Part shown: piece by piece, positions 1,757-40,259 of the stretch | Position numbering within the stretch: position 1 is the stretch's first letter | Layout: each line of letters opens with the position of its first letter | Virus record (IMG/VR): IMGVR_UViG_3300033148_003387 | Location: 1-50,578 of that record | DNA: 50,578 nucleotides | Origin: a virus | Reading direction: 5' to 3' (one strand) | Position numbers and translations under genes: made by a program | The notes under the pieces: generated by a model | What the model was told of the DNA's origin: nothing | Seen by the model: the letters and a program-made list of their open reading frames with translations, nothing else | Database searches by the model: none

Positions 1757-2008
1757 TTAAGTTATTTCATTTACGTTATTTATAATTCGTGATTGGTCTT
1801 TGTCGTATTGTTTATAGTCTATAATAAACCCAACTAAGACTATTATGTTCATTCCACAAGAGGCTAATATCTCATGAAGATCCGCATACACATTTAAAGA
1901 TAAATGGATATGCCCTACCATCCAAAAGGGGACGGCAAGGTTTTGACTTATCCATATTAAAGTAAACTTTGTTATGCTTTTTATTTTTAATTTATTTATA
2001 GTATACAT
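1757..2008 (-). CDS. Small membrane protein (83 aa)
   Basis: Two hydrophobic stretches, roughly residues 15-38 and 48-63 (ILASCGMNIIVLVGFII), suggest a membrane protein with one or two spans followed by a charged tail rich in Asp and Asn. It overlaps by 17 bases the 3' end of the glutamine amidotransferase fusion gene upstream, so the two are likely co-translated. There is no direct evidence of shared function. Confidence 0.6.
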   Translation of the reverse strand: MYTINKLKIKSITKFTLIWISQNLAVPFWMVGHIHLSLNVYADLHEILASCGMNIIVLVGFIIDYKQYDKDQSRIINNVNEIT

Positions 2009-3068
2009 TTGTCATTTCATCTATTTGTTCATCTTTATAGGTACTACAAGTCATGCAATAAAGCCTAGCTTCATACTCATCATACCACAACTCATCAGAA
2101 CAGTTATTACAATCAACTCCAGCTTCCATAACTTCACCTTCCATTCTTTCTTCTAAAGGGACATCTTCAAACTTTGGATTGTAATATTCCCAATTACCAT
2201 CATCAGCCCATCTATCTTCTAATAAATAGCTGTCTACATACGATTGATGATGAACCCCACTATCCTTAACGGTGTCGTTAAAGTATGTCCACGCCTCTAC
2301 TATCTCTCCGTTACTTAGTCGTATTGGAGTCTTTTGTCTTTTATACCAATTGGGGTGTCCTTCTAACATATCTATGTCTATCATTGTGTCTTTGTCAACT
2401 AGAAACACATCTACATCTACATTATGTCCTACTCCCTTTTTACTTAGTAGGTATGGTAGTCCCTCTACTATAAGGGGATATTTGTATACAGTTTCACCTG
2501 AGTCTACATATTCTGATTGTGTTAGGTAGCTATAATAATTACTATGTTTATATTTAAGCGTTCCGTATACAGCCATAAAACTAAACCCTAACACATTCTT
2601 CTTGCTATACATAATTCCATCGCTGTCGCTGTGCCACAGTTTAGGATTATATATTTCAAATGTTTTTTCTTTAGTATTAGCAACTACATATCTACAATTT
2701 GTCATTTCCAACACTTTCCTCCAACGACTTGGTGCTAAATCTGCTAGTATTTCAGCCAGCTCCTCAGTGTCGGTTGTTAGTAAATTCCCCAATCCTGGTA
2801 CTGTTCCATTTTGGAATAAAAGATTGTCTTTATCAATACTAAACGGATGACAGTTGTTGAGGTTTATTTTACCTACAGTTGCATACCTAAAGTGAGCTAT
2901 AAACGGTCTAGGCGTTAACAGTTTTTCATATTTTTCACTTGGTATTTTTTCTAGTTCAAAAGTATCTAACCATATAATTCCTAGTCCGTCAGGGTTTTTT
3001 AGTGCTGAAGCAACAAGGGTTGCATGGTTAATGATGTTTTTGTTTTCTTTAATTATTATTACACACAT
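1992..3068 (-). CDS. Class II glutamine amidotransferase / gamma-glutamylcyclotransferase fusion with zinc ribbon
   Basis: A 358-residue three-part fusion. Residues 2-160 look like a class II (Ntn) glutamine amidotransferase: Cys2 directly after Met as nucleophile, then HFRYATVG (59-66), a CHPF block (73-76) and QNG (86-88). Such domains release ammonia from glutamine. Residues 165-265 look like an AIG2/GGCT gamma-glutamylcyclotransferase: YGTL (168-171), YPLIVEGLPYL (197-207) and LEGHP (235-239), whose Glu236 is a candidate catalytic acid. These enzymes cyclise gamma-glutamyl amines to 5-oxoproline. Residues 320-341 form a CxxC...CxxC zinc ribbon. The gene starts one base after the amidoligase gene ends, so they are surely one unit. 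Established work (Iyer and colleagues on amidoligases) links amidoligase, GATase and AIG2 genes in prokaryotic operons. The physiological substrate here is unknown. Confidence 0.85.
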   Translation of the reverse strand: MCVIIIKENKNIINHATLVASALKNPDGLGIIWLDTFELEKIPSEKYEKLLTPRPFIAHFRYATVGKINLNNCHPFSIDKDNLLFQNGTVPGLGNLLTTDTEELAEILADLAPSRWRKVLEMTNCRYVVANTKEKTFEIYNPKLWHSDSDGIMYSKKNVLGFSFMAVYGTLKYKHSNYYSYLTQSEYVDSGETVYKYPLIVEGLPYLLSKKGVGHNVDVDVFLVDKDTMIDIDMLEGHPNWYKRQKTPIRLSNGEIVEAWTYFNDTVKDSGVHHQSYVDSYLLEDRWADDGNWEYYNPKFEDVPLEERMEGEVMEAGVDCNNCSDELWYDEYEARLYCMTCSTYKDEQIDEMTNVYYK

Positions 3069-5839: not shown

Positions 5840-5938
5840 TTATTTATTTATATATCCAATAAAAAAAGCCAACGCTAATGATAGGTTGACTAATAACATC
5901 AAGATATCTCCTTGATACTTCTTTATAAATTGTTTCAT
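5840..5938 (-). CDS. Transmembrane microprotein (32 aa)
   Basis: A short frame from ATG at 5938 whose product starts MKQFIKKYQGDILML and continues with a single hydrophobic span (residues 12-29) and a lysine at the end. The positive N-terminus suggests an N-in orientation. It overlaps by 4 bases the end of the upstream gene (5935). Frames this short can arise by chance, but the charged-then-hydrophobic organisation and the operon overlap favour a real membrane microprotein. Confidence 0.5.
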   Translation of the reverse strand: MKQFIKKYQGDILMLLVNLSLALAFFIGYINK

Positions 5939-8409: not shown

Positions 8410-8410
8410 T

Positions 8411-8509
8411 TTACTTATTTAATGATTTAATAAATTGTCTTAACTGATTCACTCTAACATTAGAGCTGTCATTAAGAGCTTCTTTGATTTGCTGTTGTAT
8501 TTTGTCCAT
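8411..8509 (-). CDS. Hypothetical microprotein (32 aa) following the tRNA-like element
   Basis: ATG at 8509 lies three bases after the 3' end of the tRNA-like sequence; TAA is at 8411-8413. The product starts MDKIQQQIKEALNDSSNV and looks like two short amphipathic helices. The tight abutment to the tRNA-like element means RNase P or RNase Z processing of that element would create or remove the 5' end of this message. Small size keeps confidence low. Confidence 0.45.
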   Translation of the reverse strand: MDKIQQQIKEALNDSSNVRVNQLRQFIKSLNK

Positions 8510-8512
8510 AGT

Positions 8513-8573
8513 GGCAATACAGAGAATCGAACTCCGTTACCTATTATTTCAGTTTGTCAACCTGACTATTGCC
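8513..8573 (-). tRNA. tRNA-like element, only 61 nt, apparently lacking a D arm
   Basis: The minus strand folds as a perfect 7-bp acceptor stem (GGCAATA with TATTGCC) and a canonical T arm (CGGAG-TTCGATT-CTCTG, five pairs with one G-U, loop starting TTCGA). Between them are only 37 nt, about 12 short of a normal tRNA. One reading gives an anticodon arm TCAGG-TTGACAA-ACTGA (four pairs plus a G-A) with loop TTGACAA and candidate anticodon GAC (Val), no D arm and a 12-nt variable region. Another reading makes GTCAGGTTGAC a tiny D arm with a poor anticodon stem. No CCA is encoded. It may be a degenerate tRNA or a tRNA mimic; both folds are my own hand folding. Confidence 0.5.
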
Positions 8574-8611
8574 AATAAAAAAAGAGGGCAACTTTTATTG
8601 TTACCCTCTTT
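8574..8611 (-). terminator. Strong intrinsic terminator on the minus strand
   Basis: A 12-bp stem (AAAGAGGGTAAC with GTTGCCCTCTTT, one wobble pair), 7-nt loop and a run of seven T on the minus strand. It ends the gene-free segment 8612-9226 and directly precedes the tRNA-like element, so whatever is transcribed leftwards from about 9226 would stop here. Confidence 0.85.
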
Positions 8612-9226
8612 AGTTTTATCTCCTTATCCATCATTGTCATATATCCGACCTCAGTCTTAATTTTTGACTTAGATATAATTTAACTTTTGAACAGGATCTG
8701 CTCTCCTTATTTATAAACACAACCTAGCAGTTGATAGGAAGCTTAGTATTTCGGCAGTTTTTACCTGCTTTACCCACTTACCAAATATTTCAATTCAGTT
8801 GTCTTTAAACATAGGGTGCAACTTTACACAATGCGCCTCGCTTTACGTGTTTTCGCTATATATTTAACCAGCTCCTGATCGAAAAATCAGTCCATACCTT
8901 AGACCTTAGTTCTAGTTAAACTCTCTGCTTCTTTAGTCCATTTATGCGCACTACTCGAACGCTTTCGCACTCAAAACTTACCTAAATTGCATCTCTAGAC
9001 ATACATACCTGCCTAGTTGGTTTTTAAACTTTCAAAGGGTTAAATAAAACGTGCTGAATTGTTATTGAATTCGCCATTTAAACAACTATAAGAACGCTTA
9101 TAAATGCTGCTAAATGCTTTACGGTAGAGGTTCTAACATTAAGACCTTAAGAACGCTTAAAATCTGTCAGATTTGCTACAATTAACCTTTGAATTAACGC
9201 CCAATTAAAAGGGCGTTAAACGCTTA
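8574..9226 (-). ncRNA. Candidate large structured non-coding RNA (about 650 nt)
   Basis: More than 600 bases in a dense phage genome hold no convincing reading frame, yet are bounded by a promoter-like signal (9232-9261) and a 12-bp terminator (8574-8611). The interior is full of hairpins: a 9-bp stem 9194-9202/9211-9219, AAATC...GATTT at 9159-9175, two near-identical hairpins TTAAG-AACG-CTTAA at about 9148 and 9088, a 5-bp stem at 8875-8890 nested in 8866-8871/8912-8917, a 6-bp stem GGTGCA/TGCGCC near 8815-8837 and GCAG/CTGC near 8753. Phages are known to carry giant ornate RNAs such as GOLLD and ROOL, often beside tRNA genes; this locus resembles that setting. The identity with either class is not established. 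Confidence 0.6.
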
Positions 9227-9231
9227 ATTAA

Positions 9232-9261
9232 AAAAGATATAAAGAACTATTTGCCGTCAAC
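9232..9261 (-). promoter_or_regulatory. Promoter-like sequence for the candidate RNA
   Basis: Reading leftwards, GTTG (9261-9258) is followed after 18 bases by TATCTTTT (9239-9232), one mismatch from the Bacteroidota pattern TTTG-N19-21-TAnnTTTG. Transcription would start near 9226, just before the 9-bp hairpin at 9194-9219. Confidence 0.5.
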
Positions 9262-9308
9262 ACTCAGTTAAAAAACTGTCAACCCTTCGGAAGTTGAACT
9301 GGTGTTTT
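9257..9308. other. Alternative-hairpin element between terminator and RNA promoter
   Basis: CAGTTAAAAAACTG is a local hairpin, and CAAC...GTTG closes a second one around CTTCGGAAG. Alternatively AACACTCAGTT can pair over its length (one bulge) with AACTGGTGTT. Two mutually exclusive folds in 50 bases could be a switch or simply part of the terminator region. Confidence 0.4.
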
Positions 9309-9310
9309 AC

Positions 9311-9335
9311 AAAAAGGGGGCTATTTTGCCCCCTT
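9311..9335 (-). terminator. Intrinsic terminator after the gene at 9340-9771
   Basis: A perfect 8-bp GC-rich stem (AAGGGGGC with GCCCCCTT), 6-nt loop and five T on the minus strand, starting 5 bases past the stop codon. The other strand is also followed by T-rich sequence, so it may act in both directions. Confidence 0.85.
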
Positions 9336-9339
9336 ATAT

Positions 9340-9771
9340 TTATTTAGAATTCTTTGAAAGTCTGCTTAATACATTACACACTTGGTGCGTTGAGAAATAC
9401 TCTTTTTTAACCTCTGTTATAACGTATTTATTACCCTCTTTTACGCTTTTAAACCTTTCGTATCTAGTCAAATTAGATAAGAAAGACTTAACCGTTAACG
9501 CTGAGATATTTAGCTTTGAGTTGTTGGTCTTATTCAGGTAATCAATAAACGCTTGCGTTTGCTCTAATCCCTCACCTTTACAAAATTTTACTATACCGTT
9601 TGCACTTCTAGTAGTTTCTAGGTATTTGCTTTTTACAATTCTTCTCAATTGTACGTTTTCGTTGATTTTAGGTGTTTTTTTAGTTGACTTTGCACCTGAT
9701 AAACTAACTTCTTTTGTTGTTGTTCTTTTACTATTCTTCGAAGAAACAACGCTTTTTATTTGTGTTTTCAT
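9340..9771 (-). CDS. Basic hypothetical protein, possible DNA-binding domain (143 aa)
   Basis: The first 45 residues are a disordered, lysine/serine/threonine-rich tail (MKTQIKSVVSSKNSKRTTTK). Residues 55-140 look like a folded helical domain with a possible winged-helix pattern: helix SANGIVKFCKGEG, helix QTQAFIDYLNKT, helix ALTVKSFLSNLTRYERF, then a hairpin VKEGNKYVITEV. It is the promoter-proximal minus-strand gene facing the G-rich control region and has its own terminator, an arrangement typical of an early regulator. Regulatory function is inference. Confidence 0.6.
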   Translation of the reverse strand: MKTQIKSVVSSKNSKRTTTKEVSLSGAKSTKKTPKINENVQLRRIVKSKYLETTRSANGIVKFCKGEGLEQTQAFIDYLNKTNNSKLNISALTVKSFLSNLTRYERFKSVKEGNKYVITEVKKEYFSTHQVCNVLSRLSKNSK

Positions 9772-9993
9772 ATTGCAATAATACGTTATAAATATTTAAT
9801 AAACAAATTATTTACAAGTTTTTTTTATTTTATTTACATTTTACTGAGGTAATTAAGGGGACAACAAAGAGTTAATAAGACAATAGAAAGGTTTTAAGAG
9901 GGTTTAAAGGGGCTGAAATGTTAAGGGGTTTAAAGAGGGGTTGAAGGTGTTATCCCTTTGCTTAAAGGGTGCAAGGGTTAAGAGTTTAATGAA

Positions 9994-10024
9994 GGGTAAA
10001 GGGGGACGGGGTACGGGTACGGGG
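9994..10024 (+). other. Canonical G-quadruplex motif
   Basis: Five G tracts (3, 5, 4, 3 and 4 G) separated by loops TAAA, AC, TAC and TAC, satisfying the G3+N1-7 rule on the plus strand. A second, looser cluster of four G tracts lies at about 9898-9943. Confidence 0.75.
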
Positions 10025-10063
10025 TTGAGTATTGCAGTAATGAGGGGGGGGAGTTAGTGAGAT

Positions 10064-10113
10064 CAGGCGCGCGCGTGTCCACGCGTTAGCGCGCAAGCGC
10101 GCGAGTGCGTGCG
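10064..10113. repeat. GC-rich palindromic block
   Basis: GCGCGC/AA/GCGCGC centred at 10095-10096 extends outwards, with one mismatch and two wobble pairs, to CACGC/GCGTG, giving a hairpin over 10080-10111. An overlapping hairpin CGCGTG-TC-CACGCG lies just to its left. The GC content is extreme for this genome. Confidence 0.8.
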
Positions 10114-10258
10114 AGGTGTGCGAAAACGTGAAAAAGTTCGGGCGAAATTTTTTAAAAAAAGAACCCCCCTTGTTTTTTAAATCGTTTTTCTGGTGGGGTC
10201 GAGTCGTCAGCGCGTGGGGGTCATCCCCTGGTTATATGTATGTGATAAAATTTTTTGC

Positions 10259-10266
10259 TATCTTTG
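10259..10266 (+). promoter_or_regulatory. -7 promoter box TATCTTTG
   Basis: Matches TAnnTTTG of Bacteroidota sigma-A promoters, 16 bases before the ATG at 10283. No clear -33 TTTG at the standard distance. Confidence 0.6.
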
Positions 10267-10282
10267 TTATAAACTATACAAC

Positions 10283-13186: not shown

Positions 13187-13387
13187 ATGAGTAAGATGAC
13201 TAACAGAAAACGCAAATGCCCTAAAGGAGAAAGGTTTAATAAGGGTAAAAACAAATGTGTAGAAACACTTATTAGTAAAGCTGGCATAGACAGCCCAGGG
13301 GCTGTAGCTGGTTTAATTGGTGTTTTAGGTGGAGGATTAGGAGCTTACGCTAAAGTAAAGTCGGATATTAAAAAGCAAGGACGATGA
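13187..13387 (+). CDS. Small basic protein with Cys motif and a Gly-rich hydrophobic helix (66 aa)
   Basis: An N-terminal KRKCPKGERFNKGKNKCVE motif (two Cys spaced 13 apart) is followed by GAVAGLIGVLGGGLGAYAKV, a Gly/Ala-rich hydrophobic helix that could be a membrane segment, and a short basic tail. The Cys motif is similar to the C-terminal part of the frameshifted gene downstream (RCEKKGYTWNNNTNTCEKK). The stop overlaps the next start as ATGA. Possibly a membrane-active or virion-associated peptide. Confidence 0.65.
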   Translation: MSKMTNRKRKCPKGERFNKGKNKCVETLISKAGIDSPGAVAGLIGVLGGGLGAYAKVKSDIKKQGR

Positions 13388-37400: not shown

Positions 37401-40259
37401 CAGAATCAAGTCTTAGGACAATCCCCAGCTAAAGTAAGCTTAAATCCAGGTGTACTTACAGGGGCGACCACAGAAGATAAAGAGAATAGCAACTTTAACG
37501 CATGGGTCTTTTCTAATGCCTTAGAAAGTTATCGAATTAAAGACGCTTGGAATGGCTATCAACTTAAATACAGCCCTAGAGCAAGTACCGTAATAGATGA
37601 CTATGAAGAACAAAGGGCTGCTGAAGCTCTTACCTACAGTGGTATATATAGAGAAAACACAGGTGTTAATAATCTAAACGAGTTTAATCTTTCTATAGCT
37701 AACTTTCGATACTTAGATAAGTTCTTTGGGTCTATTCAAAAACTTCATGCTCGAGATACGGATGTAATTGTTTTTCAAGAGGATAAAATAACTAAAGTTT
37801 TATATGGTAAAAACTTATTAAATGACGCTATAGGTGGTGGAGATATTGTTTCAATTCCCGAGGTTTTAGGTACGCAAATTCCTTTTGAAGGTGAATATGG
37901 GATAAGTAGTAATCCTGAAAGTTTTGATTATTGGGGGCCAGACATGTTTTGTACTGATGCAAAAAGAGGTAGTGTGTTGAGTATAAACTCACAAGGCATA
38001 TACCCTATTTCATCTTCAGGAATGATGGATTACTTTAAAGATGTTTTCATATCTTCTCCTAACACTCGAAAAATAGGAGGTGTTGATCCTTTTAAACAGT
38101 TTTATACTTTATTTGAAAGCGATATAGAGTTTCCGTGTACTTTTAAATTATCGGTTGGTAAAGAGCGTCCTTGGGTTAATCCATTTGATTTATCTTGGAG
38201 ATCTAGAAACGTATGTGTAACCATCAGTTCTAATGCGACTTGGGGTATTACTTTAGTGGATACAGGTGATGGTACCGCTTGGTGTCAAATAAATGGATTC
38301 CCGGGACCCACGTATTCCGGTCTAGGCAACGCACAAGTCTGTTTTAATTTTAATAACAATAACAGTGGAGCAACTAGGTCTCTCCAAATTATATTTCAAG
38401 GTTGTGATGAAAGTTATGTCTACAACGTTAATCAATCAGCGTGGAGACCTATTGAGGTTGATAGTTGGGTGATTGGAAGTCCGATATTAAAACCTCTTAA
38501 CCCTGTGTGTGTGGGAGATGACGGTGAGTATGTTTCAGATGTGGAATATGATTTTAGCTCTAACACTGGGGGTCCTATTGAATTCCCTTCCACTAGAATG
38601 AGAAATAAGCCTATTTCTTTTGTCAATAGATATAAAGGTATCGCTGGTCAACAGTCTGTACCTACACCTGGTGACACTGTTACGTTAAAAGCTTATACAG
38701 CGCAAACCCTTAGTAAACAAGGGTTTAATATTGATTTTGGAAACACACTAAGATACTTGGTTTCAGATGTTCCATACACTGAAGAACAAGTAGAGGATTT
38801 ATTAGCTCTTTCTACTGCCGCACCATTAGTTCCAGGGGCTGGGTTTGTAGAAGGTAGTTTTACGTTTAATGTTCCCAATGATGAAGGGTTTTTATATTTA
38901 ATTTGGGATTTTAGAAACATAAGAAATCCAGGTGTAAGTATTGTGTCTCCTTCAGGTTCAGAAGGCACAACCTATCATAGTATAAACTACAATGACACGG
39001 TAGGTGTTTCTAGAATAAACTATAATGCCAATGCTATAGCTAACAGGTTTAGGGTTAAATATGGAAACACAGAAGTATTTGATACTGGTTTTGTGGTAGG
39101 TGCTGGCTCTTTTAATATTCAGAAAAGTGTTAAAGAAATAGAGAGCGCTTGCTTGATTGTAGAAACTAGCGGTGTAGATGACGGATGGGACGTGGTTCCT
39201 GATCCAACCGCATTAACAAGTTTCTTAACCAATAACGCTGGCACTACTTTTCCACTTATATGTGCGGCTCCCGTCCCTGTGACTACTAGGTGGCACAACG
39301 GAATAAACCCTCTTCCTGTTTTAGGGGACACTATTTTTGAAAACCCTTTTGGTAGTTCAGTTTTACCTGGTGGTGACTTATATTGGAGAGTAGGGGTTGG
39401 TCCCGATGGAGATTATGTTTCATTTGGTGATGATGGAGTAGTGTTTATAGAAAATAATTGTGCTGCATGTACTGAGGTGGCGGTACCTGTTATAACGGTT
39501 CCTGATTTAAACCTCGAGTTAGGTCAAGAAATAAGTCTGCAACTTACAGCTACTAATAACCCTGAGTCATGGAATTTAGTTAGTTCTTGCGTTTCTTATT
39601 CCTTTTTAGGTGGAGAAACGGGTGGAATTTATGAATACACATCTTGTGAAGACGGTGTAATTAGAGAGGTTTCAGTTCCTCTTCAAGGAAGACAAGTTAT
39701 ATGCTCTTCGACTGTCCCTGTTTTAATTGACGGTTCAGATTCTAGTTTTACTGTTGTAGATATTTGTGAGGCGGAGGTAATGCCTCCAACTTTACGATTA
39801 GATCAATTTAAAGGCGTGTTAAGCGGAACTATTACCGAAACAGGTGTTTATCCAATTGTTATAGAAGCTACTAATTGTTTTGGTACTAGTGCTCCTACTA
39901 CGTTTGTTGTAGATGTGATTAATGCTAGCGCTTACCGTAGATTCAACATGAATACCAACAATCCTGAAACTAATGCCTTAGCCGCGTGTGGAGTTGCTGC
40001 AACTTACAGAATATACTACCATAGTGGATTAAGTCCTTATCCGGTAGTAAATGATTTTGTATACTTTAGATCGGACCGAACAGGTGAATATTTTCCATAC
40101 AACGGTGGGTATTTATGGTATCTTACAGATGGTGGTGAAGCTATAAGAATAGATAGCGTTGGACAAGTGGTAGATGTTAGCATTTGTGGCGTAACAAAAA
40201 CCACAGAAGCTGGTGATGACAAAACAACAGAAAATGATTTAGACAAAACAATAGAATAA
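34404..40259 (+). CDS. Giant tail nozzle (muzzle) protein with Ig-like modules
   Basis: A 1951-residue protein. The N-terminus MKLTRGFIAGIMNKDLDERL, QYRDALNVGVSTSAESDVGA and IYWLVSSDTFDYVFRYNED resemble tail-nozzle proteins that build a beta-propeller on the ring proteins (T7 gp12-like, 'muzzle' of crAss-like phages). Large parts are beta-rich with repeated Gly/Asn/Pro loops. The last 500 residues hold Ig-like modules (PVITVPDLNLELGQEISLQL, and VYPIVIEATNCFGTSAPTTF) that may carry fibres. It is about twice the usual nozzle length because of these modules. It forms the tip of the short tail through which DNA leaves. Confidence 0.8.
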   Translation: MKLTRGFIAGIMNKDLDERLLPPGQYRDALNVGVSTSAESDVGAIENQLGNTNMSNLTLDPSAVTIGAVSNDSDKNIYWLVSSDTFDYVFRYNEDLNLTTTLLQDTKGRLLNFDSAYLVTGINIINDLLFWTDNLNPPRKLNVTRNYLVDGFEEDDISVIVKPPLFAPIINMGSTLPVGGAGNITGQENNLEETFVEFSYRYKYLDNEYSAMAPFSSAAFNASVYQYDYANWYLKSMTNANNLVNITFRVGGPQVKEIQLLFRESQSTNVYVVESYDYSAPFNWDFGDNAQAGAYAAAVALTTSFPGNVAFTTQPGFGFGLSGEGIPDSYEVGDTVFIDQDPGFTHASYNGEHIIVEIIDRYTIVIDVLFAGATPVESGSVTLETKTIEFVNNKIYTVLPSDELGRLFDNVPLKALGQELIGSRLVYGNYVQFFDLVNQNNEAIALDFDLYLESRAVGGLPERTFRSDRDYEIGICYLDSYGRMTTVLTARENNLYISPDNSNSVNDIQVYINSPAPSFASHYRLYIKQAKGDYQNIIPSFFVQEGLKRWFQIGPGDINKVKKGEYLICKHTPEGPTFSNTQYKVLDIESKPKDFLNIPGTPQTAGVYFCINDPSGLFNTASLDIYATTNSSVGGPVGFANLGNIFYSQIDNPIFYGQSTTADRVKVVAVPGIAASTAHQSAQYKAFRIKLTVVNGATNEFKYEFMSQEGAYSNPLMVDTSLSSFTLTMSNNPAAPNIFYNITVNSVGAVIYGDPVAAVVWPDLPNSYLTNDYFIINVHSEEAKYTLDNNLNETQGSVPVPATTFSNVGYPKDKVIQAGAQITFKLTHHRSTGENYEDPAQVFISSKEYLNLEEWFWEDQIYSAFNNLTPEGTSGGFGGNQSNTGASLISFARAWATGVNSSGNTYDVWQSNTSGPFSGYANWNELLVSEGSICMRIGTPISALNAGTGVGWSLTVTFEVIQTPGLTVFETLPADNVPEIYFETNKTFAISNGVHEGNLQNQVLGQSPAKVSLNPGVLTGATTEDKENSNFNAWVFSNALESYRIKDAWNGYQLKYSPRASTVIDDYEEQRAAEALTYSGIYRENTGVNNLNEFNLSIANFRYLDKFFGSIQKLHARDTDVIVFQEDKITKVLYGKNLLNDAIGGGDIVSIPEVLGTQIPFEGEYGISSNPESFDYWGPDMFCTDAKRGSVLSINSQGIYPISSSGMMDYFKDVFISSPNTRKIGGVDPFKQFYTLFESDIEFPCTFKLSVGKERPWVNPFDLSWRSRNVCVTISSNATWGITLVDTGDGTAWCQINGFPGPTYSGLGNAQVCFNFNNNNSGATRSLQIIFQGCDESYVYNVNQSAWRPIEVDSWVIGSPILKPLNPVCVGDDGEYVSDVEYDFSSNTGGPIEFPSTRMRNKPISFVNRYKGIAGQQSVPTPGDTVTLKAYTAQTLSKQGFNIDFGNTLRYLVSDVPYTEEQVEDLLALSTAAPLVPGAGFVEGSFTFNVPNDEGFLYLIWDFRNIRNPGVSIVSPSGSEGTTYHSINYNDTVGVSRINYNANAIANRFRVKYGNTEVFDTGFVVGAGSFNIQKSVKEIESACLIVETSGVDDGWDVVPDPTALTSFLTNNAGTTFPLICAAPVPVTTRWHNGINPLPVLGDTIFENPFGSSVLPGGDLYWRVGVGPDGDYVSFGDDGVVFIENNCAACTEVAVPVITVPDLNLELGQEISLQLTATNNPESWNLVSSCVSYSFLGGETGGIYEYTSCEDGVIREVSVPLQGRQVICSSTVPVLIDGSDSSFTVVDICEAEVMPPTLRLDQFKGVLSGTITETGVYPIVIEATNCFGTSAPTTFVVDVINASAYRRFNMNTNNPETNALAACGVAATYRIYYHSGLSPYPVVNDFVYFRSDRTGEYFPYNGGYLWYLTDGGEAIRIDSVGQVVDVSICGVTKTTEAGDDKTTENDLDKTIE

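Follow-up and report, generated by a model that had tools for sequence, protein, structure and literature searches.

GOLLD and ROOL are large phage-borne RNAs that form RNA cages and are located near tRNAs; GOLLD lies beside tRNAs or contains them, and ROOL is often found near tRNA islands (PMC12286853). The kayvirus vB_SauM-515A1 has long non-coding RNAs (lncRNAs) of 525 nt and 570 nt that adjoin tRNA genes and are strongly transcribed; its lncRNA2 has a typical early promoter and represents 8.4% of normalised reads (PMC7698491). In phage K, lnc001 and lnc002 also adjoin tRNA genes and are strongly transcribed (PMC9241854). The animal nuclear RNAs mascRNA and menRNA (RF01684) are tRNA-like in shape and lie immediately downstream of the long non-coding RNAs MALAT1 and MEN beta.

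The stretch of DNA analyzed here, termed the window, is a 50,578-base viral record. Matches to PHROGs families identify a terminase, a portal and virion proteins, and a phage GroEL is also encoded. The terminase has 69% identity to that of podovirus MW202828 and 44% to those of Flavobacterium elemoviruses. The window is a fragment of an elemo-like podovirus. Genes from ~9,771 down to 188 are on the minus strand and the remainder of the window is mostly plus strand; at the 3' terminus a single open reading frame (ORF) runs past the record end. Positions 1992-3068 encode a gamma-glutamyl cyclotransferase domain with an N-terminus that is weakly glutamine amidotransferase-like, and MW202828 likewise has a gene annotated as a cyclotransferase. 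Another terminase with 69% identity to that of the window is present at CP070801.1 861143-883347, in a 1.05-Mb contig labelled as a Candidatus Aenigmatarchaeota chromosome, which is possibly a mis-binned or chimeric phage.

The early, minus-strand part of the window contains a candidate untranslated RNA that is followed by a tRNA-shaped element (Table 1). By architecture, its closest precedent is the kayvirus lncRNAs. These also occupy a long non-coding gap on one strand, have a nearby terminator and have a body without an Rfam family at gathering threshold, and lncRNA2 precedes tRNAs as the window element precedes the tRNA-shaped element. (The 3' end of phage K lnc001, positions 833-969, scores 43.4 bits with the DUF3800-I RNA model, just below its gathering value of 44.2.) However, the kayvirus lncRNAs come from a Staphylococcus host and show no sequence similarity to the element by blastn; their transcription is proven and their tRNAs are real, whereas the window has a predicted RNA and an element that lacks the D arm. 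ROOL (RF03087) is similar in length (574 model positions), but its model does not match the element up to E 10. GOLLD is also a large RNA, but many members are >800 nt and the element has no Rfam match. The likeness to the kayvirus lncRNAs, GOLLD and ROOL is at most one of position and length. That to mascRNA and menRNA is an analogy only: the tRNA-shaped element scores far below gathering, and an intrinsic terminator is present between the candidate RNA and the tRNA-like element.

Table 1. Coordinates of features at the locus and of tRNA-shaped elements in related phages
Feature	Position	Strand	Description or basis
Candidate untranslated RNA, ~650 nt	8576..9226	-	non-coding, between two terminators; no Rfam family
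Upstream early gene, basic 143-aa orphan protein	9340..9771	-	ORF
Terminator ending upstream gene	9314..9335	.	GGGGGC-AAAATA-GCCCCC, minus-strand TTTTTGT after
Candidate Bacteroidota-type promoter TTG-N18-TATCTTTT	9232..9260	-	transcription start expected near 9226
5' structured domain	9024..9225	-	9-bp hairpin, then multibranch closed by long stem
9-bp perfect hairpin TTAACGCCC-TTTTAATT-GGGCGTTAA	9194..9219	-	sequence and MFE structures
First sister mini-hairpin, 5 bp	9147..9160	-	CGTT loop; plus strand TTAAG-AACG-CTTAA
Second sister mini-hairpin, 6 bp	9087..9102	-	CGTT loop; plus strand TATAAG-AACG-CTTATA
Intrinsic terminator of candidate RNA	8581..8611	-	stem of 12 pairs, one of them G-U; run of 7 T
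tRNA-shaped element without D arm	8512..8573	-	Rfam sub-threshold, ARAGORN mitochondrial mode, descriptor versus shuffles
Possible 32-aa ORF	8411..8509	-	translation; ATG 2 nt past tRNA-like element
Next early gene, 64 aa	8215..8409	-	ORF; no Pfam or PHROGs match
Long tRNA-shaped element	G048 ~13,205-13,350	-	relative
Long tRNA-shaped elements, two in tandem	G001	-	relative
Long tRNA-shaped element	MW202828, locus L089 523-629		relative
Long tRNA-shaped element	G006, locus L131 17729-17866		relative

A gene-free gap between two terminators

The non-coding stretch at positions 8410-9339 (930 nt) is the longest in the window, which is 93% coding when ATG ORFs of at least 50 aa on the main strand of each half are counted. 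There is no ORF of at least 40 aa on either strand of 8661-9301, and start-to-stop ORFs within 8612-9301 reach 27 aa at most. The longest stop-free minus-strand stretch there is 30 codons, compared with 51 in dinucleotide shuffles; a stretch this short is found in 2 of 400 shuffles, and stops are spread more evenly over the minus frames than in shuffles. These results bear out the first-pass annotation, which had described about 650 bases without a plausible gene in a genome that is otherwise nearly gapless. Translation of the gap through its stops in six frames gives no PHROGs family up to E 1, and six-frame tblastn against the sequences of 17 related phages is likewise negative. Because stops close the frames evenly and both searches are silent, a recently decayed gene in the gap appears unlikely.

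The genes that border the gap are orphans, with no relatives found for their proteins. The 143-aa protein has no Pfam or PHROGs match, its NCBIfam matches are all sub-threshold, and no relatives are present among viral contigs or phages; a single-sequence fold has a pLDDT of 42 and is uninformative. The 32-aa ORF downstream has no known homologue and may not be a gene. The second largest gap in the window (9772-10282, 511 nt) is partly GC-rich, is located between the early and late strands and possibly represents an origin or control region. In relatives, too, the divergent region upstream of groEL contains long gaps, two of which are 70% alike over 298 nt.

The terminators on the two sides of the element are the only strong minus-strand terminators in the whole window, as defined by a fully paired stem that has four or more G-C pairs and is followed by T at 6 of 8 positions; shuffling the first 9.95 kb 60 times yields none. 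The downstream one, which had been described earlier as a 12-bp terminator with seven T and is found as such, has a local fold z of ~ -4.4. With terminators at both sides, transcription between them depends on a separate promoter or on read-through. At the candidate promoter, five of the six fixed positions in TAnnTTTG agree and TTG is correctly spaced. This agrees with the Bacteroidota-type signal proposed in the first pass, but there are 103 such sites in the window (1.02 per kb per strand) and the match is therefore weak when taken alone. The minus strand has just two such sites between 5877 and 9950, at 9232-9260 and at 9783, the latter upstream of the 143-aa gene. No host-type promoter was found from the terminator at 8581-8611 through the early genes to 5935, and the next site is at 5877. 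Given the flanking terminators and the closed frames, a separate non-coding minus-strand unit beside the tRNA-like element is a well supported prediction.

Fold of the candidate RNA and the tRNA-shaped element

The minus-strand minimum free energy (MFE) has a z of -2.1 to -2.7 when the terminator is included and -1.3 without it. For 16 coding-strand controls taken from this phage, z lies between -4.4 and +1.0, so that a strong z is no proof of RNA structure; the fold energy without the terminator, both global and local, is inside the range of the coding controls. The RNAs of phage K, known from RNA-seq, serve as a calibration, with z values of -0.9 to -1.1 for lnc001 and -3.7 to -5.0 for lnc002. 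The overall z of -1.3 is compatible with a real RNA, because the transcribed lnc001 reaches only -0.9 to -1.1.

The fold signal is concentrated at both ends: at 9060-9340, and at 8500-8700, where the terminator and the tRNA-like element lie. The 5' domain, with borders picked after the fold was known, has an MFE of -52.4 kcal/mol and a z of -4.23 (0 of 200 dinucleotide shuffles); 2 of 149 coding-strand windows of 200 nt come near this z. Its closing stem pairs 9182-9193 with ~9031-9043. The middle of the element (8612-9020, ~400 nt) has a z of -0.39 and folds like random sequence. Greater stability than in shuffles is confined to the 200-nt 5' domain, the terminator and the tRNA-like element. 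The 9-bp perfect stem near the predicted 5' end and the two sister mini-hairpins with the same AACG loop, both pointed out in the first pass, are present; the latter are found as direct repeats and also by a pattern scan. The further description of the region as crowded with hairpins is not confirmed over the whole length; only the 5' domain stands out. An 18-nt complementary pair (9024-9041 with 9281-9298, 83%) competes with the closing stem of the 5' domain for one 3' strand; this pairing would need a transcription start upstream of 9298.

The minus-strand sequence of the tRNA-shaped element is GGCAATA-G-TCAGG-TTGACAA-ACTGA-(12 nt)-CGGAG-TTCGATT-CTCTG-TATTGCC-A. It has a perfect 7-bp acceptor stem, a 5-bp T stem with a TTCGATT loop, and an anticodon arm with a 4-bp stem (one mismatch in the arm) and a 7-nt loop. 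A descriptor of acceptor plus T arm with perfect pairing finds this single place in the window, compared with a mean of 0.12 per shuffled window. The tRNA-like neighbour reported in the first pass is thus present in its acceptor, T and anticodon arms, but it does not qualify as a full tRNA: the D arm is absent, the Rfam tRNA model gives 19 bits compared with a gathering value of 29, and ARAGORN accepts it in mitochondrial mode only, with a negative result in bacterial mode. The best Rfam match by E-value is the mascRNA model (8513-8573; 22 bits, E 0.02-0.09, gathering 42.5).

The relatives have ordinary tRNA genes together with abnormally long tRNA-shaped elements of 104-162 nt. These long elements of related Bacteroidota podoviruses have good acceptor and T arms with long inserts; when introns are allowed in ARAGORN, two of them are read as intron-containing tRNAs and the others are not bacterial tRNAs. 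A 146-nt example from one relative has no blastn relative among phage records. In G006 the element at 37,729 immediately follows a strong terminator at 37,708, an arrangement shared with the window. The G006 terminator hairpin and tRNA-shaped element (locus L131 17641-17868) align over the full length, but weakly, with the Rfam DUF2693 RNA; this identity was rejected, with 20 bits compared with a gathering value of 81.

Search for relatives of the element

The first-pass annotation had suggested either GOLLD or ROOL membership or a new class, and the membership is not borne out. None of the 4227 Rfam families matches the element at gathering, and GOLLD and ROOL are unlisted even at E 5-10. The ROOL model RF03087 gives no match up to E 10, although its control genomes gave no match either. 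A group I intron core (AAGGTATGGACTG, resembling an S element) was considered and rejected; the Rfam intron models are silent and there is no exon context.

The homologues that the first pass had proposed to look for were also not found. Blastn of the element shows no homologue in 50,697 phage records (at E thresholds of 1e-5 and 10), 50 related viral records or 413 genomes, i.e., 17 with related terminases and 396 of one order; matches in these phage, viral and genome sets are 11-42 nt only. Six IMG/VR scans built from the element or its neighbours gave no homologue, one of them being flawed in that it used a stop-substituted translation whose back-translation put K and W codons at stops. Two matches to exact 17-18-mers (two were used) were rejected as both are within unrelated coding sequence, and eight matches to the paired sister hairpins were rejected, as all eight look coding. 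Kayvirus matches to the terminator, a 36-nt intergenic hairpin, were set aside as terminator similarity. Relatives of the GroEL and of the terminase were found, and the element is absent from them, including those with a 73% identical terminase. The large gaps of relatives were rejected as counterparts, as they represent other regions (the divergent early/late region and tRNA genes). The block thus appears to be private to a lineage that is hardly sampled by the searched collections. Of the earlier proposal of a giant structured RNA, the separate non-coding unit and the 200-nt 5' domain are supported, but the middle 400 nt is no better than shuffles, and the name is not yet warranted because no relative is present in the searched collections.

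Interpretation of the locus

That the region makes an untranslated RNA is probable from its sequence. The reading we favour, and consider rather likely, is that it represents an independent early minus-strand transcription unit whose ~650-nt RNA would probably act in trans. Transcription would start between the upstream terminator and ~9226 and end at the terminator at 8581-8611, and the product would consist of the compact ~200-nt 5' domain and a 400-nt middle in which structure is not evident from energy. It would most likely be a trans-acting early phage RNA of the kayvirus lncRNA kind, i.e., abundant and beside tRNA genes. If transcription reads through, the tRNA-like element could be a site of RNase P cleavage, which would give an RNA with a defined 3' end. 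A bolder form, in which a new class of long RNA in Bacteroidota podoviruses has its own early transcript and an RNase P-generated 3' end at a D-armless tRNA-like element, by analogy with MALAT1/mascRNA, is doubtful. Counting against an independent unit are the weak promoter match, the shuffle-like middle and the early genes downstream of 8411, for which no clear separate promoter is seen until 5877; transcription might thus have to pass the terminator, as it would in a leader.

Phage HK022 has put RNAs, structured RNAs that let RNA polymerase read through terminators. The region could similarly be the long leader of an early operon, with the terminator at 8581-8611 as an attenuator and the structured 5' RNA permitting read-through into ~25 small early genes. 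As no host-type promoter was found between that terminator and the first genes, this is the main rival, although unlikely. The genes from 8409 down to 188 are all on one strand, and a 5'-proximal structured domain is the expected look of a cis-acting antitermination RNA. However, a leader of this kind would be long at 650 nt, candidate antiterminator sequences located upstream can pair with the terminator arms at just 10 of 12 positions, which is unremarkable, and the promoter scan would miss phage-specific promoters. A trans-acting RNA and a leader both predict transcription of the 5' domain and differ on passage beyond 8576.

It is unlikely that the region is neutral or decayed DNA, or regulatory DNA in which the inverted repeats at 9087-9219 are operators of a dimeric repressor, with spacer making up the remainder. 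The sister hairpins do double as short DNA palindromes, the middle 400 nt is no more stably folded than expected, and the block is missing in relatives with a 73% identical terminase, as unconstrained DNA would be. Nevertheless, further copies of the repeats in the window are no more frequent than chance predicts, the open stretches are shorter than those left by decayed genes and PHROGs finds none, and a spacer has no need of two strong terminators. If the models had failed to recognize a divergent GOLLD or ROOL RNA, or one from another described large RNA family, the length, phage setting and tRNA-like neighbour would fit (PMC12286853), but the Rfam results and the unstructured-looking middle, which speaks against an ornate fold, make this very improbable.

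Long untranslated RNAs beside tRNA genes are found in a few phage groups, where they are strongly transcribed and have no known role. The general question is open to testing, as related elemoviruses can be grown on a cultured Flavobacterium strain. If the favoured reading of an independent untranslated RNA is true, the locus would be a sequence-unrelated example in Bacteroidota podoviruses, which would suggest that such RNAs are a recurrent phage strategy and not a quirk of two or three RNA families.
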